DNA from: an uncultured Saprospiraceae bacterium
GTDB lineage: Bacteria; Bacteroidota; Bacteroidia; Chitinophagales; Saprospiraceae
Reading direction: 5' to 3'
Assembly (NCBI GenBank): GCA_937959095.1
Contig: CALGLY010000719.1
Span: forward strand, 1 to 15,109
DNA length: 15,109 nt
The stretch's first letter is position 1; each line of letters opens with the position of its first letter. A program made the translations under genes and the position numbers. The notes under the pieces are model-generated. The model made no database searches, was not told the origin of the DNA, and saw nothing but the letters and a program-made list of their open reading frames with translations. Of this stretch, positions 1 through 15,109 are shown one piece after another.

Positions 1-3000
1 ATCTGTGCGAGTAGTGCTTCGTACTTGCTTTGCAAATCAGTAATCACACTTGTCTTTTCTTCTACTATTGTAGTATGTGTGATTTGATGAGCTTCCAGTT
101 GCGCTAGTAGGGCATTGTATCGCTCTTCGATACTTCCCTTCTCTACCGTTACATTTTCTATAGTAGCAGTTTGTGCTTCTATTTGAGCTAATAGTGCTTC
201 GTACTGGTTTTGCAAATCAGCAATCACATTAGCTTTTTCCTCTACTAAGTCATCGTATCGGTCTTGAGCATCAGCAATGGCTTGTGCTTTAGCAGCTACC
301 AAATTTGCATTTGCTGCTTGCTGTTCTTCAAGCTGTGCTACTATTGTATTGTACCGTTCTTCGATACTGTTCTTCTCTGCTGTTACATTTCCTATAGTAG
401 CAATTTGTTCTTCTATTTGTGCTACTAATGCGGTATGCGTTCTTTGTAAATCAGCAATTAGAGCTGTTTGTTCTTCTACAAAATTAGCATGTGTGACTTG
501 TTGCTCTTCAAGCTGTGCTACTACTGTATTATACCGTTCTTCGATACTGTTCTTCTCTGCTGTTACATTTTCTATCGTAACAGTTTGTGCTTCCAACTGT
601 GCTACAAGCTCTGCATACTTGCTTTGAAGATCAGCGATTACGGCTGTTTTATCTTCTACAAAAGCAGTATGGATACTTTGATGCTCTTCTAGCTGTGCTA
701 ATATGGCATCATACTTTGCTTGCCAGGTTGTATCTAGATCGTTCTTTTCGTTGGTTAAAGTCGTCATGGCTAGGCTATGCTCCTCTAACGTTGTCGTGCG
801 CTTGATTTCCAATTCATTAATGATGCCATTTTTCTCATTCAGTAATGATTCTAATGCGTCATTATGTTCATCAAGCTGTACGTCGTACTTTCGTTGTAAT
901 TCTTCGATAGCTGCATTTTGCTGTGCTATCAAGTTGGTATTGACCTGGTGCAATTCCTCGCTTTCCATCACGAAGATATTATGCTTGTTTTCCAGTTTTT
1001 CAATGACATTGTTCTTTTCTGCAACAATGGTAGTAGTTGCTACTTTCTGTGCTTCCAACTGGATGTGCAAGTCATTTTGCTTCGCCTGTAATTCTACGAT
1101 GATTGTTTCTTTCTCATTGATGATGCGTTCTTTCGCTTCTGAAAGTTCAATCAAGTTGCGTTCTTGAATTTCCTTCTCGTGCGTTAGTGTCTCAATGCGA
1201 GTAGTCAATTCTTCTATCGTAAGTTCCTTCTCGTTGTTTAGTATTTCAATCGCTGCGCGCTCTTCTTCCAAAGATTGGATAAGCACTTTTTGCTGATTGA
1301 TAGAGATAACGGTATCGTTGTATTTGCCCTGCAATTCTTCAAGGCTGTTCTCCAAGCTTAGGACACGGGCGCTTGTCTGCTCCTGCTCTTCTTGGAGCGT
1401 ATCATAGGCAGCGCATTTCATAGTATGTTCTTCGTCCAGTGTATTGAATTTCGCCTCTAGTGCTACCAGTGCTTTTGCATCCTCATCTATTGTTTTTTGC
1501 AACAATTCGATTTGTGCATTCAGTACTGATTTTTCTGCTTGAAGTTCCGTTATTTGAACCTGCGCTTCTGTGTACGTTGTTTCCCAATCCGCCGTCTTTT
1601 GAGCGTATTCGGTTTCCAGTTCAGCAAAGCTTGCTTGTAATGTTTCAAGCTCTTCGCTCTTTGTTCTTAGTTGCTCTTGGCCTTCGCCATATTGCTCTAG
1701 TAATTCGCTATATTTCGTATTCCAATTTTCGTTGATACGAACATTGTTAGTTTCGAGCTGCTTGATTTCTTCAATCAAACCGTCGCGCTCTGTTTCGAGG
1801 TTGCTTAATTCTGCTGACTTGTTGTCGTATTGTTGTTGTAAGCTATCGTACTTCGATTGCCACTCCATAATACTTGTCACCTGAAGGTTCTTAGATAGCT
1901 CCAAGTCATCCGTCAGTTTCGTGCGATCATCGTTCAGTATCTGTAACTGCGCTTGTAGGGCTTCGTATTCGCTAGTCAAATCTTCATGCCTAGCGTGCAA
2001 CGCTGCGAGTAGTGCTTCATTACTCTCGAGTGCTGCTCGTAGTCCTTTTGTAGTTTCTAGTTCTGTTTCTAGTTCCGTTACTTGCAAGATACTCTGGTCG
2101 TATTCGCCTTGCAAGCTGCTGTATTTCATCGCCCATTGTGCGATGCCTGCTATTTTTTCATTCTCTATTTGCTGTAGTGCTTCCGATATACTAGATAGTT
2201 CTACTTGCTTCGTGTTTAGTTCTTCTAATGCTGCTGCAAGTCGTGCTTCTAGTTCTTCTATATCGCTTTGCTTCTGTGTTGTAATTGTGCGTTCCTTAAT
2301 AAGGAGTTGTTCCTTATCTTCTAAGTAGCGTGCACGCTCTTGTGCGTTGATGAACTGTCCTACTACTTTCTTGTACTTATCTTCCCAGTTGCCTTCACTT
2401 TCCTTATGAAGATTCTGTATGTTGGCAAGCTCTTCTTCTAGTGCAAGCTTTCTAGTGTTCAGTTCTTCTATTTCTGACTTACTAATGGTGTAAGTAGCTT
2501 GTAGTGTTTCGAACTTTTCTGCCCAGTCAGTTAAATCAGCTTCTTTTGCTTGCAATGTTGCTTCAAAAGAAGTATTCGCTGCATTGTGCTGGTCGGATAG
2601 GTCGCGGTATTTATCCAAGTTTTCGTTGTACTCAATCAATAAACTATTGTACTTGATTTCCAACTCTGGATTAACACTGCTGCTCAATTCTAAGCCAGTT
2701 TTAGAAGCAGATTGAAGTGTCGTATAATCATTCAGCAATGCATTATATTTCAATGCCCAACGTGCTGAATTTTCATCTTTCTCTTTCTCCAATCCATCTA
2801 CGCGCTGTATTAGCTGGTTGCGCTCTAAGTTCCAATTTGCTGTTAATGTTTCAAATTCTTCCTTCGTATTATCTTCCTCTACTACTTCTTCTACTGCAGG
2901 TTCTTCTTCCACTACTTCTACTACTTCTTGTTCTGCCACAGGCATATTATTAGAAGCAGAAAGGTTACTGTAAGCCAATTGCGTTTCTTCTTCATGTACC

Positions 3001-3386
3001 GCTTCTTCTATTAGGTCGGCTACATTCGCTTCTTCCTCCATGCGAGCGAGTTGCTCTTTTAGTGTGGTTATTTCCACATCTTTCGCTTCGCTCTCGGCTT
3101 CTAATTTCTTATAATAATCTTCAGCATCGAAGTAGCGTGTCTTCCACTCGGAGAGTTCGCCATCGTGTTGCTGTTCTTTTGTTTTTAGTACATTGATGCG
3201 ATCTTGTAGCTCGCGATGCTTATTGGAAGCGTCCGTGAAATCGCGCTGGAGCGTCCGATAGGAACGGCTAACTTCCTCTAATTCGTTAATAGCATTTTGC
3301 AAACGAGGTCGTAGCATGGACCAGGCGATGGCAGAGCCAATCAACAGTCCACCTAGCCCTGCTAGCAATGGATATAAAAAACACAT
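1..3386 (-). CDS. Giant membrane-anchored coiled-coil protein, C-terminus beyond window
   Basis: An open frame runs without a stop from the ATG at 3384-3386 to the left edge, giving 1128 complete codons; the C-terminus lies outside. Residues 4-24 form one hydrophobic segment. Arginines at 26 and 28 just after it suggest, by the positive-inside rule, that the rest is cytoplasmic. The remainder is almost wholly Glu/Gln/Leu/Ala/Lys-rich with coiled-coil character, broken by an acidic Val/Glu linker at about 151-172. A W-x-x-K-Y-like motif recurs at W81, W210, W288, W334, W418, W509, W555, W601 and W888, often about 46 residues apart. Residues 938-1128 are tandem 60-residue repeats. I do not recognise a family; coiled coils give misleading matches to myosin and SMC. 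The gene lies downstream of, and codirectional with, the OmpA-like gene. It may be a structural or tethering rod, which is inference. Plus-strand frames opposite it are low-complexity shadows. Confidence 0.88.
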   Translation of the reverse strand, partial: MCFLYPLLAGLGGLLIGSAIAWSMLRPRLQNAINELEEVSRSYRTLQRDFTDASNKHRELQDRINVLKTKEQQHDGELSEWKTRYFDAEDYYKKLEAESEAKDVEITTLKEQLARMEEEANVADLIEEAVHEEETQLAYSNLSASNNMPVAEQEVVEVVEEEPAVEEVVEEDNTKEEFETLTANWNLERNQLIQRVDGLEKEKDENSARWALKYNALLNDYTTLQSASKTGLELSSSVNPELEIKYNSLLIEYNENLDKYRDLSDQHNAANTSFEATLQAKEADLTDWAEKFETLQATYTISKSEIEELNTRKLALEEELANIQNLHKESEGNWEDKYKKVVGQFINAQERARYLEDKEQLLIKERTITTQKQSDIEELEARLAAALEELNTKQVELSSISEALQQIENEKIAGIAQWAMKYSSLQGEYDQSILQVTELETELETTKGLRAALESNEALLAALHARHEDLTSEYEALQAQLQILNDDRTKLTDDLELSKNLQVTSIMEWQSKYDSLQQQYDNKSAELSNLETERDGLIEEIKQLETNNVRINENWNTKYSELLEQYGEGQEQLRTKSEELETLQASFAELETEYAQKTADWETTYTEAQVQITELQAEKSVLNAQIELLQKTIDEDAKALVALEAKFNTLDEEHTMKCAAYDTLQEEQEQTSARVLSLENSLEELQGKYNDTVISINQQKVLIQSLEEERAAIEILNNEKELTIEELTTRIETLTHEKEIQERNLIELSEAKERIINEKETIIVELQAKQNDLHIQLEAQKVATTTIVAEKNNVIEKLENKHNIFVMESEELHQVNTNLIAQQNAAIEELQRKYDVQLDEHNDALESLLNEKNGIINELEIKRTTTLEEHSLAMTTLTNEKNDLDTTWQAKYDAILAQLEEHQSIHTAFVEDKTAVIADLQSKYAELVAQLEAQTVTIENVTAEKNSIEERYNTVVAQLEEQQVTHANFVEEQTALIADLQRTHTALVAQIEEQIATIGNVTAEKNSIEERYNTIVAQLEEQQAANANLVAAKAQAIADAQDRYDDLVEEKANVIADLQNQYEALLAQIEAQTATIENVTVEKGSIEERYNALLAQLEAHQITHTTIVEEKTSVITDLQSKYEALLAQ
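3..575 (-). repeat. In-frame tandem repeats (60 and 78 codons) inside the coiled-coil gene
   Basis: Three consecutive units begin at the I-x-N-V-T-x-E-K motif. They lie at 396-575 (60 codons), 162-395 (78 codons) and 3-161 (cut by the window edge). The 78-codon unit is a 60-codon unit plus an internal 18-codon duplication of the E-E-K-x-x-x-I-A-D-L-Q segment. Copies at 353-390 and 533-570 are identical over 38 bp, exactly 180 bp apart, which points to recent slippage or unequal recombination. A more diverged unit precedes them, at about 576-760. Confidence 0.85.
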
Positions 3387-3616: not shown

Positions 3617-4843
3617 TTATTTTATCATTACTTCTACTCTGCGATTCTTTGCACGTCCTTCTGGCGTTTTATTCGATTCCAACGGATCGCGATGCCCCTT
3701 TGAAGAGACCTCTATTTGATCTGCCGAAATTCCATTTTGTGCCAAGTAGCCTCGTACAAATTCCGCACGTCGTTCTCCTAATTTCAAGTTATCTTTTGAA
3801 CTACCTTGATTATCGGTATGCCCAACTACCATGATTTTAGCATCACTTTCTAAATTGAGGTAGTACGCCAAATCCGTGAAATATTGACGTAGGTCGGTAG
3901 TGAGCTGTATTTTGTCTTTTCCTGTTTCGAAGTGAAGCTTTCGCTTCTTTCCCTTCAAATTTTTCTCCATTTCCATCAGTGTAGTTTTGTCCTCTTCTGC
4001 TTTCATGGCCATGAAAGAAAAATCGACACCCCCTATCACTGCACTATCAAACATATCTAAGTCCTTACTCTCTGCCCCAAATACTTTCAGTTGCTTCGGC
4101 GACACATCCAAATCCAATAGGATATTTTTCACTGTATTCGCTCTTGCCAAGCCTAAGTCATTAAATACGCTTGAGTTCTCTTCTTTGCTTGAGTATAATC
4201 CAGTAAGTTGTAGCACTCGCTCCGGATTATTCTGTAAATAATTCGCTGTTTTTTCTAGGGCTTCCATCACGTTTGGTGAAGCCTTTGTCGTGTAATCCGA
4301 GAAAGAAAACACCAAATTGTCTTTCACACTTATCTTTCCATTTTTCTTATCCGCTGTATCCTCTATAACTAAGTATCGGTTCTTGAAAGAGTAGTTCAGT
4401 GCATTCCACACAAAACCCTCTTCGGTAGGTAGCTGATCAGCTACTTGCTCCATTATTGCAATCTGTCGGGCTGGTATGCCCATTTCTACTAAATGTTCTC
4501 TGAAACTTTCTGCTCGTTCTAGTCCTAAATACTGTTCGTCTGTTTCTGCTGCTTCTGCTTCTGTAAATCCGCCTGTCAATATGAGCACCTTCGCTGGGTG
4601 CTTCTCCATGTATCGTGTTAATTTTTCTAGTTCTGGTTCTGCTAGTTGAGGTACGATAGCAGCCTCATCAGCTACTGCAAATTTGATACCTTCATCTGCT
4701 TGTGCTACGATGGCGTTGTTGTCTGAAATGAGTAGCGACATATTTGCTGCTCCACCATTACAACACTGCTTCCAATTCAAGAAGCTACAAAAGCCAATCC
4801 AAGCTACCCAAAGTCCTATAAGTAAAGGCACTGGTATCTTCAT
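3617..4843 (-). CDS. OmpA-like envelope protein with three tandem OmpA-type domains
   Basis: A 408-residue protein. Residues 4-23 form an N-terminal hydrophobic signal or anchor after Lys2, with Cys27-Cys28 just behind it; no good lipobox is seen. The C-terminal domain (about 302-408) is a typical OmpA/MotB peptidoglycan-binding domain: GHTD at 341-344, L-x-x-x-R-A around 354-360, and the late motif N-R-R-V-E-V at 400-405. Asp344 and the arginines at 358-359 are the expected ligands for diaminopimelate. Two earlier segments (about 53-158 and 177-280) repeat the same plan: a strand, a helix, an LTG turn at 89-91 and 213-215, an LGL-x-R-A helix, then a short Q-I or Q-L strand. They lack the Asp of TD-x-x-G, so they look like degenerate OmpA domains. 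The product is probably periplasmic and held to the cell wall. The next gene downstream is the giant coiled-coil protein. Confidence 0.88.
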   Translation of the reverse strand: MKIPVPLLIGLWVAWIGFCSFLNWKQCCNGGAANMSLLISDNNAIVAQADEGIKFAVADEAAIVPQLAEPELEKLTRYMEKHPAKVLILTGGFTEAEAAETDEQYLGLERAESFREHLVEMGIPARQIAIMEQVADQLPTEEGFVWNALNYSFKNRYLVIEDTADKKNGKISVKDNLVFSFSDYTTKASPNVMEALEKTANYLQNNPERVLQLTGLYSSKEENSSVFNDLGLARANTVKNILLDLDVSPKQLKVFGAESKDLDMFDSAVIGGVDFSFMAMKAEEDKTTLMEMEKNLKGKKRKLHFETGKDKIQLTTDLRQYFTDLAYYLNLESDAKIMVVGHTDNQGSSKDNLKLGERRAEFVRGYLAQNGISADQIEVSSKGHRDPLESNKTPEGRAKNRRVEVMIK

Positions 4844-4917: not shown

Positions 4918-5781
4918 AATGAATAATTCGGTGGAGTAGCTAAATGAAAAACACTTAATATTTAAATATTAATATGTATAAGTATTGGTGTTTTCCATCT
5001 TTAAGTCACGGCATCTATGTATTGTTTCTTCTAAGAACGGGTCTCATAGGTAAAGAAATAGTAGTCAGGCAATCAACCAAATGACTGTCCTGTTTTGCTA
5101 GATAAGGATCTAGTAAACCCAAATTTTTGTATAACTAGTAAGTGTTTAGGAAATAATGGACTATAAATGATGATGAATAGATACGCAATTTTCTAGGGCA
5201 TCATCAAGAAACAGCCAGAAAGGGGTTGGCTGAAAATACGTCTCATTACTTAAAAAAAATAGAAGTCCAATAAATCGCGAAACGAACAACAGTAAAAGAT
5301 TTTCATCGCCTCTTACTTTCTTCTTTCTTATTCATTCCTTCTCTCTTTTTCATGACTCTTCCTAATTTTCTAAAAGGTTAGCTGTCGAGGAATTCGGTAT
5401 ACGGTTTCTATTATTTTTTTTCCAACCATCCCTTTTCATTCAGGTGGTATTAAAAAACAAAAAAACATTTTTGCCTATCGACTTTCTTACTTCTCCTGGT
5501 AGCAGATAGCGATTTTCTTTTTTAGGTGTAAGTAGTCATCTTACTTTTATCTGACTACTTATGCGGTGCATATTTAAGAAAACCCCTTTTTTGTCGGAGG
5601 GTAAGTGTCCGTACTTAATTCATTTGATATGTCATTTAGTACGCCTCTGCTATTTGTTACGACAAAAATGAACAAATGTTGTGGCTTATAAAAGCTGAAT
5701 CTCGGTAATGGTAGGAAATTGCCAGTAAAGGGGTATTAACGGCTTATTTCGTGGGGACAACCGTTTTTGGGCTTTTTTGAT

Positions 5782-9830: not shown

Positions 9831-12173
9831 CTACAACGTCCCGTGTATTTTCATTTTTAGATATTGTTCCAAAGTCAAATCAGTCATGCCTTTTGCTCTT
9901 GCGCGTTTCACTACACTCGGAGTCACGCCATGAATTCGGAGCTTGATTGCTTGTTGCAAGGAAATATCTCTGAATCCTAAATCTCGAAAACCTTCTATGA
10001 AATCGGTATCAACACCATGAATAGCACAAGACTTAATTTTATCGGCTGGAATATCGGTATAGCCCATGCGCTGTAGCGAAGCAATGAATTCCGTAGAGAC
10101 ACCATGAATTTTAAAAGCAATCAAATCATCAATATCTTCTAAATTATAACCTGCTTTTTTGATGCGATTGATATAACTTTTACTCACGCCATGAATAGCT
10201 GCGGACTTAATTTCGTGAGCAGAAAGATTATTGAAACCAACACTAGCTAAGGATTCTACCAAGTCTTGATTGACACCATGAATTTTAAAAGCAATCAAAT
10301 CATCAATATTTTCTAAATCATAACCCGCCTTTTTGATGCGATTGATATAACTCTTGTTCACACCATGAATAGCTGCTGACTTAATATCATGTGCAGAAAG
10401 ATTTTTGAAACCAATACTAGCCAGCGATTCTACTAAGTCTCGATTGACACCATGAATTTTGAATTTTACAAAATCCTGAAAAAGAAGATTGCGATAACCA
10501 AGCGAGCGAATTTCTTTTACATAGTCTGCTTCTACGCCATGAATACTTCCTTTCAGCAAGTCGTCCATATCTAAATCATCAAAACCAACACTTCCCATAT
10601 CATCAATATAGGCACGGCCTACTCCATGAATTTTTAGCTTCACGAGTTGATCCACCGAATTATCTGTGAAACCATTTGCTTTTAGCGCAGGGAGTTGTTC
10701 TTCCAGATAATCTTGTGTGAGGCCATGAATCGCTAATTTTTTTAATTGACTTTTCGATATATTCCTATATCCTTGCTGCGCCATATACTGGAAGTAGGCT
10801 TTGTTGATATTCGCCATGAATAGATGAAGCAATAACTCATCTTCCATATTGGAGTAGCCTTGTTGTTGCTTCAAATAATTTTGAAAGGATTCATTGATGG
10901 TAAAGTTATACTTCCCAAAATCGCCTTCGCTACCAATTACCTTGTTGAAGTTTACCTCTCCTGCATCTCTTGTTAATTTCGTTGCAGTACTTCCTGCTGA
11001 TAGACCAGTAAATTCGTTGACATCAAAACATCTAGTGCATGACCATATGGAAGTCTTCGACATAGTTTCAAAACGGATACAAATTTCAGCCCCATCGCGT
11101 TCTGCATACCACATTCCTCTTGCTCCATCGGTAGTTGAATCGAAGCTTGATTTTACTGTTTCATTTTTTGCGGTTGCCTTTTTTTCTTCTTTTTCCGATT
11201 TAACAGTTTGGTGTTCTGTTTGGGAGATTTGTTTTTCTTGAGTAGTTGCTTTCACGGGATTCAAAGCAATAACGGATAAACCGAGAATAGGAAATAGTAT
11301 TAAATATTTCCAACTAGAACGAACGGATGATTTCTTTGCATTCATCATGTTGATGCGTTTTTTTAAAAATGATTGATTATAATTCATAGCCAGTCCAATC
11401 GGGTATTGCGGTACTGACACTTTCAATAAATTCAGTTGATAAGAACTTGGCGCAGTGCCTTGTCCTAGCATAGTGCTATCAGTCAGAAATTCTAAATTGT
11501 TTTCGATGAGTTTTCGATATTGCCAAGCGGCAGGATTGAACCACTGTAGCACCACCAAGATTTCTGCCAATATCATATCCAAACTATGCACTTGCTGGAT
11601 ATGAATTTTTTCATGTTCGATAATTTGGTTGTAGGTTTCCCATTCATATTTTTCAGGATTGATGAAGATGAAATTCAAAAACGAATAAGGCGGTTCATCT
11701 TTATCGAGTTCCACAATTCGGTAGCCTTCATCTTTCAAACTTGGGAGTCGAATGATTTTAGAAATCAGTGTTCCTAATTGTATCAATAGATTAATTCCAA
11801 AAAGAAATAGTCCCGCCAAATAGATGTACCATAGACTTTGCCAAAGATCAAAATTGGAAAATAAATTAGGTTTTGTGGCTTCACTAGGCGAAGCTGTATT
11901 TTTTGTGCGAATATCTCCAATTGCTTCTATTGGAGTAGAATTTGCAATTTCCGTATTTGGGAGCGACGAAATTTCCGTTCCTAAAGTGGTAACGGCTTGC
12001 CAGCTTGCAAATTCTTGTGGAATTTGATATAGGGGAAGTAAAAAACAAATTATAGCACCGAACAGTAACATCCATCGATTGAGCAAAAAAAAGGTTTCTT
12101 TTTCAAGTAACAATTTGTAAAGCAGAAAAAAGCCAACTAAGAGGAGCGCGACGTGCAGCGTATATGGTATCAT
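9831..12173 (-). CDS. M56-family (BlaR1-like) membrane metallopeptidase with IHGV repeats
   Basis: 780 residues. Membrane helices lie at about 4-20, 32-49, 112-135 and 288-305. The cytoplasmic loop holds the zinc motif H187-E-K-I-H191 and, 36 residues on, N-L-E228-F-L-T-D, whose Glu is the likely third ligand. In the BlaR1/MecR1 family this protease, once its sensor is triggered, leads to inactivation of the partner BlaI repressor. After the last helix come a Lys/Glu-rich linker (about 311-340), a domain at about 350-440 (W355-Y-A-E, an L-T-R-D-A-G strand at 400-405, F-G-K-Y-N-F at 419-424), then about ten repeats of 29 residues starting I-H-G-V (482-780). No penicillin-binding SxxK sensor domain is present, so the signal is probably not a beta-lactam. 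It follows the BlaI gene by 50 bp: one operon. Domain plan resembles repeat-bearing M56 proteins of Bacteroidota and Acidobacteria. Confidence 0.9.
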   Translation of the reverse strand: MIPYTLHVALLLVGFFLLYKLLLEKETFFLLNRWMLLFGAIICFLLPLYQIPQEFASWQAVTTLGTEISSLPNTEIANSTPIEAIGDIRTKNTASPSEATKPNLFSNFDLWQSLWYIYLAGLFLFGINLLIQLGTLISKIIRLPSLKDEGYRIVELDKDEPPYSFLNFIFINPEKYEWETYNQIIEHEKIHIQQVHSLDMILAEILVVLQWFNPAAWQYRKLIENNLEFLTDSTMLGQGTAPSSYQLNLLKVSVPQYPIGLAMNYNQSFLKKRINMMNAKKSSVRSSWKYLILFPILGLSVIALNPVKATTQEKQISQTEHQTVKSEKEEKKATAKNETVKSSFDSTTDGARGMWYAERDGAEICIRFETMSKTSIWSCTRCFDVNEFTGLSAGSTATKLTRDAGEVNFNKVIGSEGDFGKYNFTINESFQNYLKQQQGYSNMEDELLLHLFMANINKAYFQYMAQQGYRNISKSQLKKLAIHGLTQDYLEEQLPALKANGFTDNSVDQLVKLKIHGVGRAYIDDMGSVGFDDLDMDDLLKGSIHGVEADYVKEIRSLGYRNLLFQDFVKFKIHGVNRDLVESLASIGFKNLSAHDIKSAAIHGVNKSYINRIKKAGYDLENIDDLIAFKIHGVNQDLVESLASVGFNNLSAHEIKSAAIHGVSKSYINRIKKAGYNLEDIDDLIAFKIHGVSTEFIASLQRMGYTDIPADKIKSCAIHGVDTDFIEGFRDLGFRDISLQQAIKLRIHGVTPSVVKRARAKGMTDLTLEQYLKMKIHGTL
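9834..10730 (-). repeat. 29-residue IHGV protein repeats, about ten units
   Basis: Units start at residues 482 (33 long), 515, 544, 573, 602, 631, 660, 689, 718 and 747, and a stub I-H-G-T-L ends the protein. Consensus: I-H-G-V-x-x-x-[FYL]-[IV]-x-x-[IL]-x-x-x-G-[FY]-x-[DN]-[IL], then a second helix. Each unit looks like a helix-turn-helix pair, so the array should form a solenoid, probably outside the membrane. This is the likely sensor or partner-binding part. Confidence 0.85.
10110..10457 (-). repeat. 174-bp tandem duplication within the IHGV repeat array
   Basis: 10284-10457 (residues 573-630, units 4-5) and 10110-10283 (residues 631-688, units 6-7) are nearly identical at DNA and protein level. 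Units 4 and 6 share L-V-E-S-L-A-S and units 5 and 7 share S-Y-I-N-R-I-K-K-A-G-Y. The array therefore recently grew by a two-unit block of 58 codons. Confidence 0.85.
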
Positions 12174-12223: not shown

Positions 12224-12571
12224 CTATTTTTTCCCTTTTATCATTTCAATAATTTCTTCTAATTCTGCTGGCGATATTTTTTCCCCCTTTGCAAAATGCG
12301 CGACTAGGCTTTTGTACGAATTGCCATAATAGCCATCAAGTACATCTTCCAGATATGCCTCTCTAGAAATGAGTGGATGATACTGATGGGAACCGCCAAC
12401 AGCGTCATGTCCTACAAATCCTTTTTTCTGCAAAATCCGAATCATGGTAGAAACCGTATTGTAATGTGGTTTCGGTTCGGGTAGCTCCTCGATGATTTCT
12501 TTGACAAATGCTTTTTCTAATTGCCAAAGTACTTGCATCAATTGTTCTTCTCGCTTGGCTAGTTTTTTCAT
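12224..12571 (-). CDS. BlaI/MecI/CopY-family transcriptional repressor
   Basis: 115 residues, close to the usual 120 or so. The N-terminal winged helix (about 5-70) includes L-M-Q-V-L-W at 11-16, a recognition-helix region H-Y-N-T-V-S-T-M-I-R-I-L at 36-47, and the wing G-F-V-G-H-D at 51-56. The C-terminal dimerisation helices include S-L-V-A-H-F-A-K-G-E-K-I-S at 88-100. The family binds dyads as a dimer and is removed when the partner M56 protease is activated. The M56 gene follows by 50 bp. Three copies of a 16-bp dyad cover the promoter just upstream, so autoregulation is very likely. I leave the gene name blank because the signal is unlikely to be a beta-lactam. Confidence 0.95.
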   Translation of the reverse strand: MKKLAKREEQLMQVLWQLEKAFVKEIIEELPEPKPHYNTVSTMIRILQKKGFVGHDAVGGSHQYHPLISREAYLEDVLDGYYGNSYKSLVAHFAKGEKISPAELEEIIEMIKGKK

Positions 12572-12873: not shown

Positions 12874-13809
12874 ATGAGAACAGGCCTAAAAGTATTTGCA
12901 CCTGCCACGGTAGCAAACGTAGCTTGTGGTTTTGATATACTAGGCTTTGCACTAGATAAACCAGGCGACGAAATCATTGCACGTTTTTCGGATACACCCG
13001 GTTTGCGAATTACTGCTATCACAGGAACGAAAGGAAAAAAACTCCCCTACGAGTTAGAGAAGAATACTGCGGGATTTGCCGCTATGCAATTTCTAAAACA
13101 TATCGGAGAAGAAGAGCGTGGTATTGAAATGGAGATTCATAAGAAGATGCCTTTCGGTAGTGGACTTGGTTCTAGTGCTGCAAGTGCCGTAGCAGGTGTG
13201 ATGGCGATGAACGAACTCTTTCGTTGCCCACTCGAAAAACGACAATTGCTTCGCTTTGCAGTAGAAGGCGAACAGATTGCAGATGGCGCATTTCATGCCG
13301 ATAATGTTGCACCTTCCTTAATAGGTGGTATCATTCTGATTCGAGATAATCCAACTTTAGATGTGCATCGCTTGGCTGTTCCGAAGGGATTGCAAGTGGT
13401 AGTTGTGCATCCTAAGATTAAGATTCTTACAAAAGATGCTCGTGCTATCTTGAGTGATACGACTTCTTTGAAACAACATATTCAGCAAAATGGAAATCTT
13501 GGTGGTTTGATTGTTGGCTTGTTTCATTCGGATTTCGACCTTATCAGTCGGTCTCTTCAGGATGTAATCATAGAGCCACAACGTGCCAAATTGATTCCTA
13601 ACTTCTATGAAGTGAAAGATGCAGCACTAAAGAATGGTGCATTGGGTTGTAGTATTTCAGGAGCTGGACCTTCTATTTTCGCACTTTGTGCCAATACCCT
13701 CATTGCCGAAAATGTAGCCAAGGCGATGCAACAAACCTTCTTTGATAATAAAGTAAGAAGCGAAATATTCATTTCAGGCATCAATCAAGAAGGTGCCATT
13801 AAGAGATAA
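12874..13809 (+). CDS. thrB: Homoserine kinase
   Basis: 311 residues. A GHMP-superfamily kinase that phosphorylates L-homoserine with ATP to O-phosphohomoserine, the fourth step from aspartate to threonine; cytosolic. Motif 1 is A-P-A-T-V-A-N-V-A-C-G-F-D at 9-21. The ATP-binding glycine/serine loop is P93-F-G-S-G-L-G-S-S101. The C-terminal motif is G-C-S-I-S-G-A-G-P-S at 258-267. All are intact and length is normal. The ATG at 12874 begins directly with the conserved N-terminus; no Shine-Dalgarno is seen, as is usual in this phylum. thrC follows after 123 bp on the same strand. The expected upstream thrA (aspartokinase-homoserine dehydrogenase) is not in the window; its place is taken by the divergent blaI-M56 operon. 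Confidence 0.97.
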   Translation: MRTGLKVFAPATVANVACGFDILGFALDKPGDEIIARFSDTPGLRITAITGTKGKKLPYELEKNTAGFAAMQFLKHIGEEERGIEMEIHKKMPFGSGLGSSAASAVAGVMAMNELFRCPLEKRQLLRFAVEGEQIADGAFHADNVAPSLIGGIILIRDNPTLDVHRLAVPKGLQVVVVHPKIKILTKDARAILSDTTSLKQHIQQNGNLGGLIVGLFHSDFDLISRSLQDVIIEPQRAKLIPNFYEVKDAALKNGALGCSISGAGPSIFALCANTLIAENVAKAMQQTFFDNKVRSEIFISGINQEGAIKR

Positions 13810-13932: not shown

Positions 13933-15109
13933 ATGAAACTATATAGTACCAATAGTCCTGACCAATATGTCTCCTTGAAGGAAGCTGTCTTGAAAGGATT
14001 GCCGGATGATAATGGCTTATTTATGCCGAAAGAAATCCCTGCCCTATCGAAGGAATTTGTTAGAAAGTTGGAAGATTATCCTTTTGCAACTATTGCCTAT
14101 GAAGTATGCCGAACCTTATTACAGGGAGCAATACCTGAAAAAGACCTCTATATGCTAGTGCGGAATGCAGTGAATTTTCCCGCACCTGTTGTTGCACTCG
14201 ATGAATCGAAGTATATATTGGAGTTGTTTCATGGACCATCTTTAGCCTTTAAGGATTTCGGTGCGCGATTCATGGCGCAACTTATGAGCTATTTCAATAA
14301 AGGAGAAGATAAAGAACTGACTATTCTAGTAGCTACTTCGGGAGATACGGGTGGTGCTGTGGCTGCCGGATTCTATAAAACACCAGGTATAAATGTAATT
14401 ATACTCTACCCTTCTGGTAAGGTAAGTGCTTTGCAAGAAAAGCAATTGACCACTTTGGGTGAGAATATTACAGCTTTGGAAGTAGATGGAACCTTCGATG
14501 ATTGCCAAGCTATGGTGAAAAAAGCCTTCTTGGATGAAGACTTGAATAAGCATCTACGCCTTAGTTCTGCCAATTCTATCAATATAGCACGACTGATTCC
14601 ACAGTCCTTTTACTACTTTGAAGCCTATAAACAACTACCAAAAGATGATAGAGATGTAGTTTTTTGCATACCTAGTGGCAACTTTGGCAACCTAACAGCA
14701 GGTCTTTTTGCACAGAAAATGGGCTTGCCTATACATCATTTCATGGCAGCGACCAATGCAAATGATGTAGTTCCTAGCTATTTGAGTACTGGTGAATACC
14801 TTCCCAGGCCTTCTATTCCTACTATTTCTAATGCTATGGATGTAGGAAGTCCGTCTAATTTTGCCCGAATGCAAAACCTATGTTCCACGTGGAACATCAT
14901 GAAAGACACTATATCAGGCTACTCCTGTGATGATGAATTGACTAGACAAGGGGTAAAAGAAGTCTTTGACACCTATAACTATATCATAGATCCGCATGGC
15001 GCAGTGGGCTATAATGCAGTAAAAGACTACCAAAAAGACCATCCCAATACCAAAGCGGTGATACTAGAAACGGCACATTTCTCTAAATTTATAGATGTAG
15101 TAGAACCTG
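13933..15109 (+). CDS. thrC: Threonine synthase, C-terminus beyond window
   Basis: 392 codons are present; the family is usually about 430-480 residues, so only the C-terminal end is missing. The PLP-dependent enzyme converts O-phosphohomoserine to threonine. Evidence: the N-terminus M-K-L-Y-S-T-N, the PLP-lysine segment H-G-P-S-L-A-F-K107-D-F-G, the S-G-D-T-G-G-A loop at 136-142, and the phosphate-binding P-S-G-N-F-G-N-L-T-A-G near 254-264. The late motif D-P-H-G-A-V-G-Y is also present. The start ATG at 13933-13935 begins the conserved sequence directly. It follows thrB by 123 bp with a repeat between them. A parS-like palindrome lies within the reading frame at 14880-14897, in a stretch that looks variable in the family. 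Confidence 0.97.
   Translation, partial: MKLYSTNSPDQYVSLKEAVLKGLPDDNGLFMPKEIPALSKEFVRKLEDYPFATIAYEVCRTLLQGAIPEKDLYMLVRNAVNFPAPVVALDESKYILELFHGPSLAFKDFGARFMAQLMSYFNKGEDKELTILVATSGDTGGAVAAGFYKTPGINVIILYPSGKVSALQEKQLTTLGENITALEVDGTFDDCQAMVKKAFLDEDLNKHLRLSSANSINIARLIPQSFYYFEAYKQLPKDDRDVVFCIPSGNFGNLTAGLFAQKMGLPIHHFMAATNANDVVPSYLSTGEYLPRPSIPTISNAMDVGSPSNFARMQNLCSTWNIMKDTISGYSCDDELTRQGVKEVFDTYNYIIDPHGAVGYNAVKDYQKDHPNTKAVILETAHFSKFIDVVEP
14880..14897. other. parS-like ParB-binding site inside thrC
   Basis: ATGTTCCACGTGGAACAT is a perfect 18-bp palindrome. Its core TGTTCCACGTGGAACA fits the conserved chromosomal parS consensus TGTTNCACGTGNAACA, on which ParB loads for chromosome segregation. It is the only CACGTG-centred site I see in the window. 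In frame it encodes L-C-S-T-W-N-I, in a linker-like part of threonine synthase. parS sites inside genes near the replication origin are well known. Confidence 0.75.

Follow-up and report, generated by a model that had tools for sequence, protein, structure and literature searches.

A predicted parS centromere site embedded in conserved threonine synthase codons of Saprospiraceae

The window, meaning the whole stretch of 15,109 nucleotides analysed here, is a contig (CALGLY010000719.1) of an uncultured Saprospiraceae bacterium whose metagenome-assembled genome (MAG) consists of 857 contigs and is 74% complete. At the end of the window, on the plus strand, lies thrC, which encodes threonine synthase (13933–15108; Pfam PALP and Thr_synth_N; match to PDB 1vb3 at E 4.3e-104); its reading frame is open at the window end, and the 3′ end of the gene is missing from the window. 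Upstream on the same strand is a GHMP kinase gene (12874–13809; Pfam GHMP_kinases_N/C), presumably thrB (homoserine kinase), a name taken from its position before thrC. Farther upstream, on the minus strand, a gene for a BlaI-type (Penicillinase_R) repressor (12224–12571) adjoins a gene for a BlaR1-type M56 peptidase with a long C-terminal repeat array containing IHGV (9831–12173), and an ORF of more than 1100 residues (3–3386), open at the window end, is repetitive and coiled-coil-like by eye. The MAG also holds a second, diverged thrC-like match with 38% identity (contig C562, 2366–3355).

Within thrC, positions 14880–14897 read ATGTTCCACGTGGAACAT, a perfect 18-bp palindrome whose symmetry ends at the flanking T (14879) and C (14898), and to which neither strand is assigned. 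The inner 16 bases (14881–14896) match the parS consensus TGTTNCACGTGNAACA with no mismatches; the T..A form of the consensus appears as TGTTTCACGTGAAACA in the available text of PMC10197239. The motif is in frame with thrC, where the 16-bp core spans codons 317–321 (TGT TCC ACG TGG AAC, encoding C-S-T-W-N) and the first base of codon 322, so that the earlier note's description of a perfect palindrome inside thrC agreeing with parS at every conserved position is borne out. The chance rate given there, 3.5 per million windows, is correct for one fixed 16-mer and does not carry over to the consensus, which has 14 fixed positions among 16 and for which base composition gives 6.2e-5 expected exact matches per window and 0.018 per 4.45-Mb genome. 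Two more perfect 18-bp palindromes occur in the window (4000–4017 and 4955–4972), one within an OmpA-family gene and one AT-rich and outside ORFs of at least 80 residues; it is thus the motif and its conservation, and not palindromy, that are unusual at 14880–14897. In an AlphaFold2 model of ThrC, residues 317–321 sit at the junction of helices 309–317 and 320–326 (block pLDDT 87), while the tolerance of the enzyme for this segment is argued from its variation in sequence and length among relatives.

A genome-wide search for the motif, proposed in the earlier note, returned two exact consensus sites in the MAG and none for the reversed control. A chance match is ruled out by this count (2 against 0.018 expected) together with conservation across the family. 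The sites are few and clustered, one lying in thrC and the other (contig C256, 195–210) 35 bp past the apparent thrC stop. C256 begins with 37 bases that repeat the window's final 37 apart from 2 mismatches, and its positions 1–159 read as the ThrC C-terminal end through the stop; from this overlap and the continuity of the protein we infer that the two contigs are adjacent, and the 2 mismatches suggest strain variation within the MAG. The second site is a 24-bp palindrome immediately behind a strong hairpin, and the next gene on C256 has a Peptidase_M1 match. No promoter was predicted at the start of C256, and the terminator scan called the hairpin on the minus strand only, so it is not claimed as a thrC terminator.

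Exact parS sites were found in 154 of 199 Saprospiraceae genomes, against 3 of 199 for the reversed control, and a thrC match was found in 160 of the 199. From these 160, 129 distinct thrC loci were fetched (L035 was dropped as a duplicate of L152); the 31 omitted were mostly the lowest-scoring, so the sample leans toward closer relatives. In a protein alignment, 88 of the 129 genes carry the motif at homologous codons with at most 3 mismatches (0 in 19, 1 in 55, 2 in 13 and 3 in 1), while the non-carriers comprise 37 with at least 5 mismatches and 4 that are gapped at the motif. Carriers span 56 genera and non-carriers 22, with one genus mixed; the cultured relatives Haliscomenobacter hydrossis and Phaeodactylibacter luteus share the thrC site CGTTCCACGTGGAACA and have intergenic sites as well. 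In six other families of the order the motif was present in none of 44 thrC genes (44 examined of 89 out-of-family matches), and the only parS-like hit within 2 mismatches among these 44 loci lies 2.8 kb before a thrC stop. On a FastTree phylogeny built without the motif columns, the carrier label needs 14 changes, compared with 58 for shuffled labels; we claim no single origin for the thrC site, since the deep branches of the tree are poorly supported. Copies outside the gene lie mostly downstream of thrC, and in some relatives one lies just before it, while 22 of the 129 loci lack a site altogether, whether in thrC, immediately upstream or in the 1 kb downstream, among them one genome with a changed motif (G102, below). 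The thrC site singled out in the earlier note is real, with the correction that such a site usually belongs to a small cluster of parS copies around the 3′ end of the gene.

The number of outside copies was compared in 120 of the 129 loci, 9 being dropped because thrC was incomplete or less than 700 bp was available downstream. Among 83 carriers, 26, 46, 8 and 3 have 0, 1, 2 and 3 exact outside sites; among 37 non-carriers, 20 have none, one has a single site, 13 have two, and one each has three, four and seven. Two loci lacking a thrC site, L059 (G169) and L043 (G079), have 7 and 4 exact intergenic parS sites in tandem after thrC. Given at least one outside site, the ratio of one to at least two is 46:11 in carriers and 1:16 in non-carriers (Fisher 2.7e-8), a test that ignores relatedness and is inflated by it; 3–4 independent pairs fall on well-supported branches, mostly in the expected direction and not significant, and a tree-aware test was set aside for having too few such pairs. 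A named-record search added 34 loci, where 29 carriers have 0, 1 and at least 2 outside sites in 3, 21 and 5 cases and 5 non-carriers in 0, 2 and 3; one of its six retrieval patterns contained the motif peptide, so its carrier rate is biased. A rule of a two-site minimum was dropped because 26 of the 83 carriers have no exact outside site and because, at up to 2 mismatches, the fetched loci of 7 (L067, L088, L101, L116, L121, L136 and L140) contain no second site; 13 of the 83 have no outside site within 1 mismatch. In five of these 13 (G048, G148, G099, G115 and G005) the exact thrC site is the only exact parS in the assembly. The coding site can apparently accompany, or replace, intergenic sites, and we raise only tentatively the possibility that in some Saprospiraceae, such as these five, the whole chromosomal centromere may be written in protein code. 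If so, ParB would load onto the very DNA through which thrC is transcribed, and the two processes may affect one another, which would link segregation to threonine synthesis.

GC skew, sampled over about 5% of each genome, was examined in two single-contig chromosomes. In the 7.5-Mb chromosome of a non-carrier (G062), dnaA lies at 0.0004 Mb, parB at 5.79 Mb and thrC at 2.364 Mb, and 20 sampled stretches of 20 kb place the best skew origin at 2.35 Mb (permutation p 5e-5), with r 0.81 at thrC, −0.31 at dnaA and −0.67 at parB. This genome is without an intragenic site and has exact parS copies 64 and 156 bp after the thrC stop. In a carrier (G125), whose skew is noisy, the best origin falls at 3.87 Mb and thrC at 3.79 Mb (r 0.58, p 0.004). 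The earlier note had suggested an origin-proximal domain for the locus; support comes from these two relatives, one of them without an intragenic site, in which the thrC locus coincides with the GC-skew origin and dnaA and parB are not its neighbours. In gut species, parS and the GC-skew origin are not systematically coincident with dnaA, according to the available text of PMC10197239. We conclude that the thrC locus probably marks an origin-proximal centromere.

The ParB_N domain was matched in 53 of 59 distinct family genomes, with one match each and both genomes of the window's genus included; the six without a match are G035, G122, G102, G005, G184 and the window's own 74%-complete MAG (G000), in which a ParB query from the same genus also found none. 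An arrangement with parS beside parB was considered for the family and rejected, as none of the 53 parB loci has an exact parS within about 1.5 kb of parB or to the contig end.

The reading frame of thrC restricts the form that the site can take. A right arm of GAAAC would read TGA, a stop codon, in the thrC frame, which excludes the symmetric TTTCACGTGAAAC form there; the right variable base is G in all 84 standard-form thrC sites, while among 123 exact outside sites it is A in 27 and T in 3. The left variable base varies together with that of the outside site at the same locus (thrC/outside C/C 56, T/T 6, A/A 1, C/T 6, T/C 1; n = 70; C against not C, Fisher p 1e-5, a test that ignores relatedness). 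One genus (g36) has TGTCACACGTGTGACA as its intergenic form and both TGTCACACGTGTGACA and TGTAACACGTGTGACA among its thrC sites, with peptides CHTCD and CNTCD; the TGTCACACGTGTGACA 16-mer was found in 2 of 26 genomes searched, in this genus only and at thrC only. In G102, a genome scored as a non-carrier in every count, the motif codons of thrC read TGTTCTTCGAAGAACG, and TGTTCTTCGAAGAACA follows downstream of the gene. Measured from the thrC stop of this locus (L041), the two copies of the changed palindrome TGTTCTTCGAAGAAC lie 348 bp upstream and 497 bp downstream; there are none elsewhere in the genome and none in 5 other genomes searched. Given that G102 has neither a standard parS nor a ParB_N match, a new centromere specificity is possible in this genome. 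In two further genomes (G091 and G122) the thrC site is asymmetric and its reverse complement is found, base for base, outside the gene; thrC and outside sites have also changed in a similarly matching way in G146 and G197. Co-change with cognate sites in the same genome is therefore seen for the left base, TGTCACACGTGTGACA and TGTTCTTCGAAGAAC, against the counter-cases G037 and G138, where thrC has CACGGGG and the outside site is standard. Covariation of the ParB recognition helix with the motif is not claimed, because helices also vary without motif change (e.g., G029 and G037); the recognition helix is divergent in G137, which supplied the sole ParB from the TGTCACACGTGTGACA genus, and the ParB_N search had no match in G035 or G102, both with changed motifs.

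The codons under the motif bear on whether the five residues could simply be conserved for ThrC function, the palindrome being a by-product of protein constraint and chance. Such an account draws on the commonness of xSTWN in the family, on the alignment of the motif Trp with one in the threonine synthase structure 1vb3, and on a Trp at that position in several non-carriers and outgroup genes; some non-carriers keep Trp or WN at the motif (GKDWS, SLQWN, QDDWN). However, in 74 genes with xSTWN the Ser codon is TCC in 72, the Thr codon ACG in 73 and the Asn codon AAC in 74, and all three occur jointly in 72, against 0.72 expected from each gene's own codon usage, which gives the thrC of the window a probability of 0.003 for all three. 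The three degenerate motif columns rank 1–3 for lowest codon entropy among 166 amino acid-conserved degenerate columns of thrC, so that synonymous constraint at the motif exceeds that in the rest of the gene; the check on synonymous sites suggested in the earlier note thus finds these codons frozen. Furthermore, STWN occurs at the motif position in no non-carrier and in none of 44 outgroup genes, carriers differ in spacing, with 9 to 20 residues separating the motif from the conserved SNF (one locus was left out, where the automatic count failed), and the residues track the DNA variant, with CHTCD accompanying TGTCACACGTGTGACA and CSSKN accompanying TGTTCTTCGAAGAAC. A purely protein-level explanation is, on this evidence, very improbable. 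As far as the alignments indicate, the DNA site largely determines the residues under the motif, which lies in a segment of ThrC of variable sequence and length, and across much of the family it appears to dictate a few ThrC amino acids. Outside sites begin with T in 138 of 151 cases and thrC sites in 25 of 88, a deviation in thrC that amounts to a compromise, with Gly, Ser, Arg or Cys as the encoded residue; the usual thrC site, being imperfect in this respect, may bind ParB more weakly.

Two other readings assign the palindrome to gene regulation. It can fold as RNA, 79 of the 88 carriers keep 7 or 8 of 8 Watson–Crick pairs, and G102 retains pairing (7 of 8) despite a wholly different core, all of which would suit an mRNA hairpin in thrC or an attenuation element. 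Yet 9 of the 88 carriers keep 6 pairs or fewer, the thrC site with its surroundings forms no stabler fold than shuffled sequences (z −0.49), the change in G102 is common to the copy 497 bp after the stop, and copies upstream and downstream of thrC generally share the sequence itself and not complementarity alone, which leaves a structural RNA role hardly credible. A parS-like operator of another regulator, for example of the threonine genes, would account for a site in and beside thr genes and for the copy just before thrC in some relatives, but the outside copies lie mostly downstream of thrC and not ahead of thr genes, two relatives have this locus at the skew origin, and the identical motif stands beside ybeY and/or gidA (both in 20) in 23 of 25 non-Saprospiraceae loci returned. 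We therefore judge this operator most unlikely.

We are thus highly confident that 14880–14897 is a genuine chromosomal parS, a predicted ParB-loading site kept by selection on thrC codons. ParB dimers would bind and load at the palindrome in codons 317–321, and, following established ParABS biology, ParB would spread from here and ParA would segregate the region. In most Saprospiraceae examined, the thrC site is one of a small parS group around the thrC 3′ end, and in the MAG of the window it is one of two, inside thrC and just after its stop. A second, segregation-related role for thrC codons, as suggested in the earlier note, is supported by their frozen state. The thrC reading frame limits which parS form is possible, and when the motif changes the coding copy changes along with the intergenic ones. 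Genomes with coding-only, both, or intergenic-only sites offer a natural experiment on the number and placement of parS per chromosome. For origin-based estimates of growth from metagenomes, it also matters that the Saprospiraceae origin region is probably at thrC, which lies far from dnaA in two genomes.

Chromosomal ParABS centromeres, built on parS and ParB, are known from bacteria such as Bacillus subtilis and Caulobacter. Like these, the thrC site has the 16-bp consensus and few, clustered copies, with ParB_N in 53 relatives and the locus at the skew origin in two; unlike them, the Saprospiraceae sites are not found beside parB, and one site lies within codons at a homologous place across much of the family. 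In the phylum as a whole, exact parS occurs in 226 of 296 genomes. The sites beside ybeY and gidA in other Bacteroidota show the same motif in one to few copies, with neighbours about 35–55 bp apart in several genomes, whereas the Saprospiraceae group is usually at thrC, with an M1-type peptidase gene nearby in 55 of 130 thrC loci. In one locus (L138) ybeY is near thrC and the peptidase gene, and in two (L004 and L020) it is near parS; the thrC group may represent the ybeY/gidA origin neighbourhood in rearranged form. Other possible coding overlaps were also noted, where parS lies inside the gidA ORF (L407, G230) or at the very 3′ end of the ybeY ORF (L425–L428, L430, L433 and L435, family f25).

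A literature search, mostly of openly accessible papers, returned no description of parS in thrC or in Saprospiraceae. Sites within coding sequences have been reported elsewhere: in the available text of the respective accounts, 9 of 10 predicted parS sites of Pseudomonas aeruginosa lie within coding sequences (PMC4368675) and parS1 of Corynebacterium glutamicum lies in trpCF (PMC7083940). The thrC parS resembles both in lying inside an ORF, and that of C. glutamicum in lying in a gene of amino acid biosynthesis. The same portions of those accounts mention neither conservation at homologous codons across a family nor frozen synonymous sites, and neither residues set by the site nor an inverse relation with intergenic copies. 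Intragenic parS is thus already known, and it is the embedding at homologous codons across much of a family, together with the shaping of the enzyme sequence, that sets the thrC case apart.
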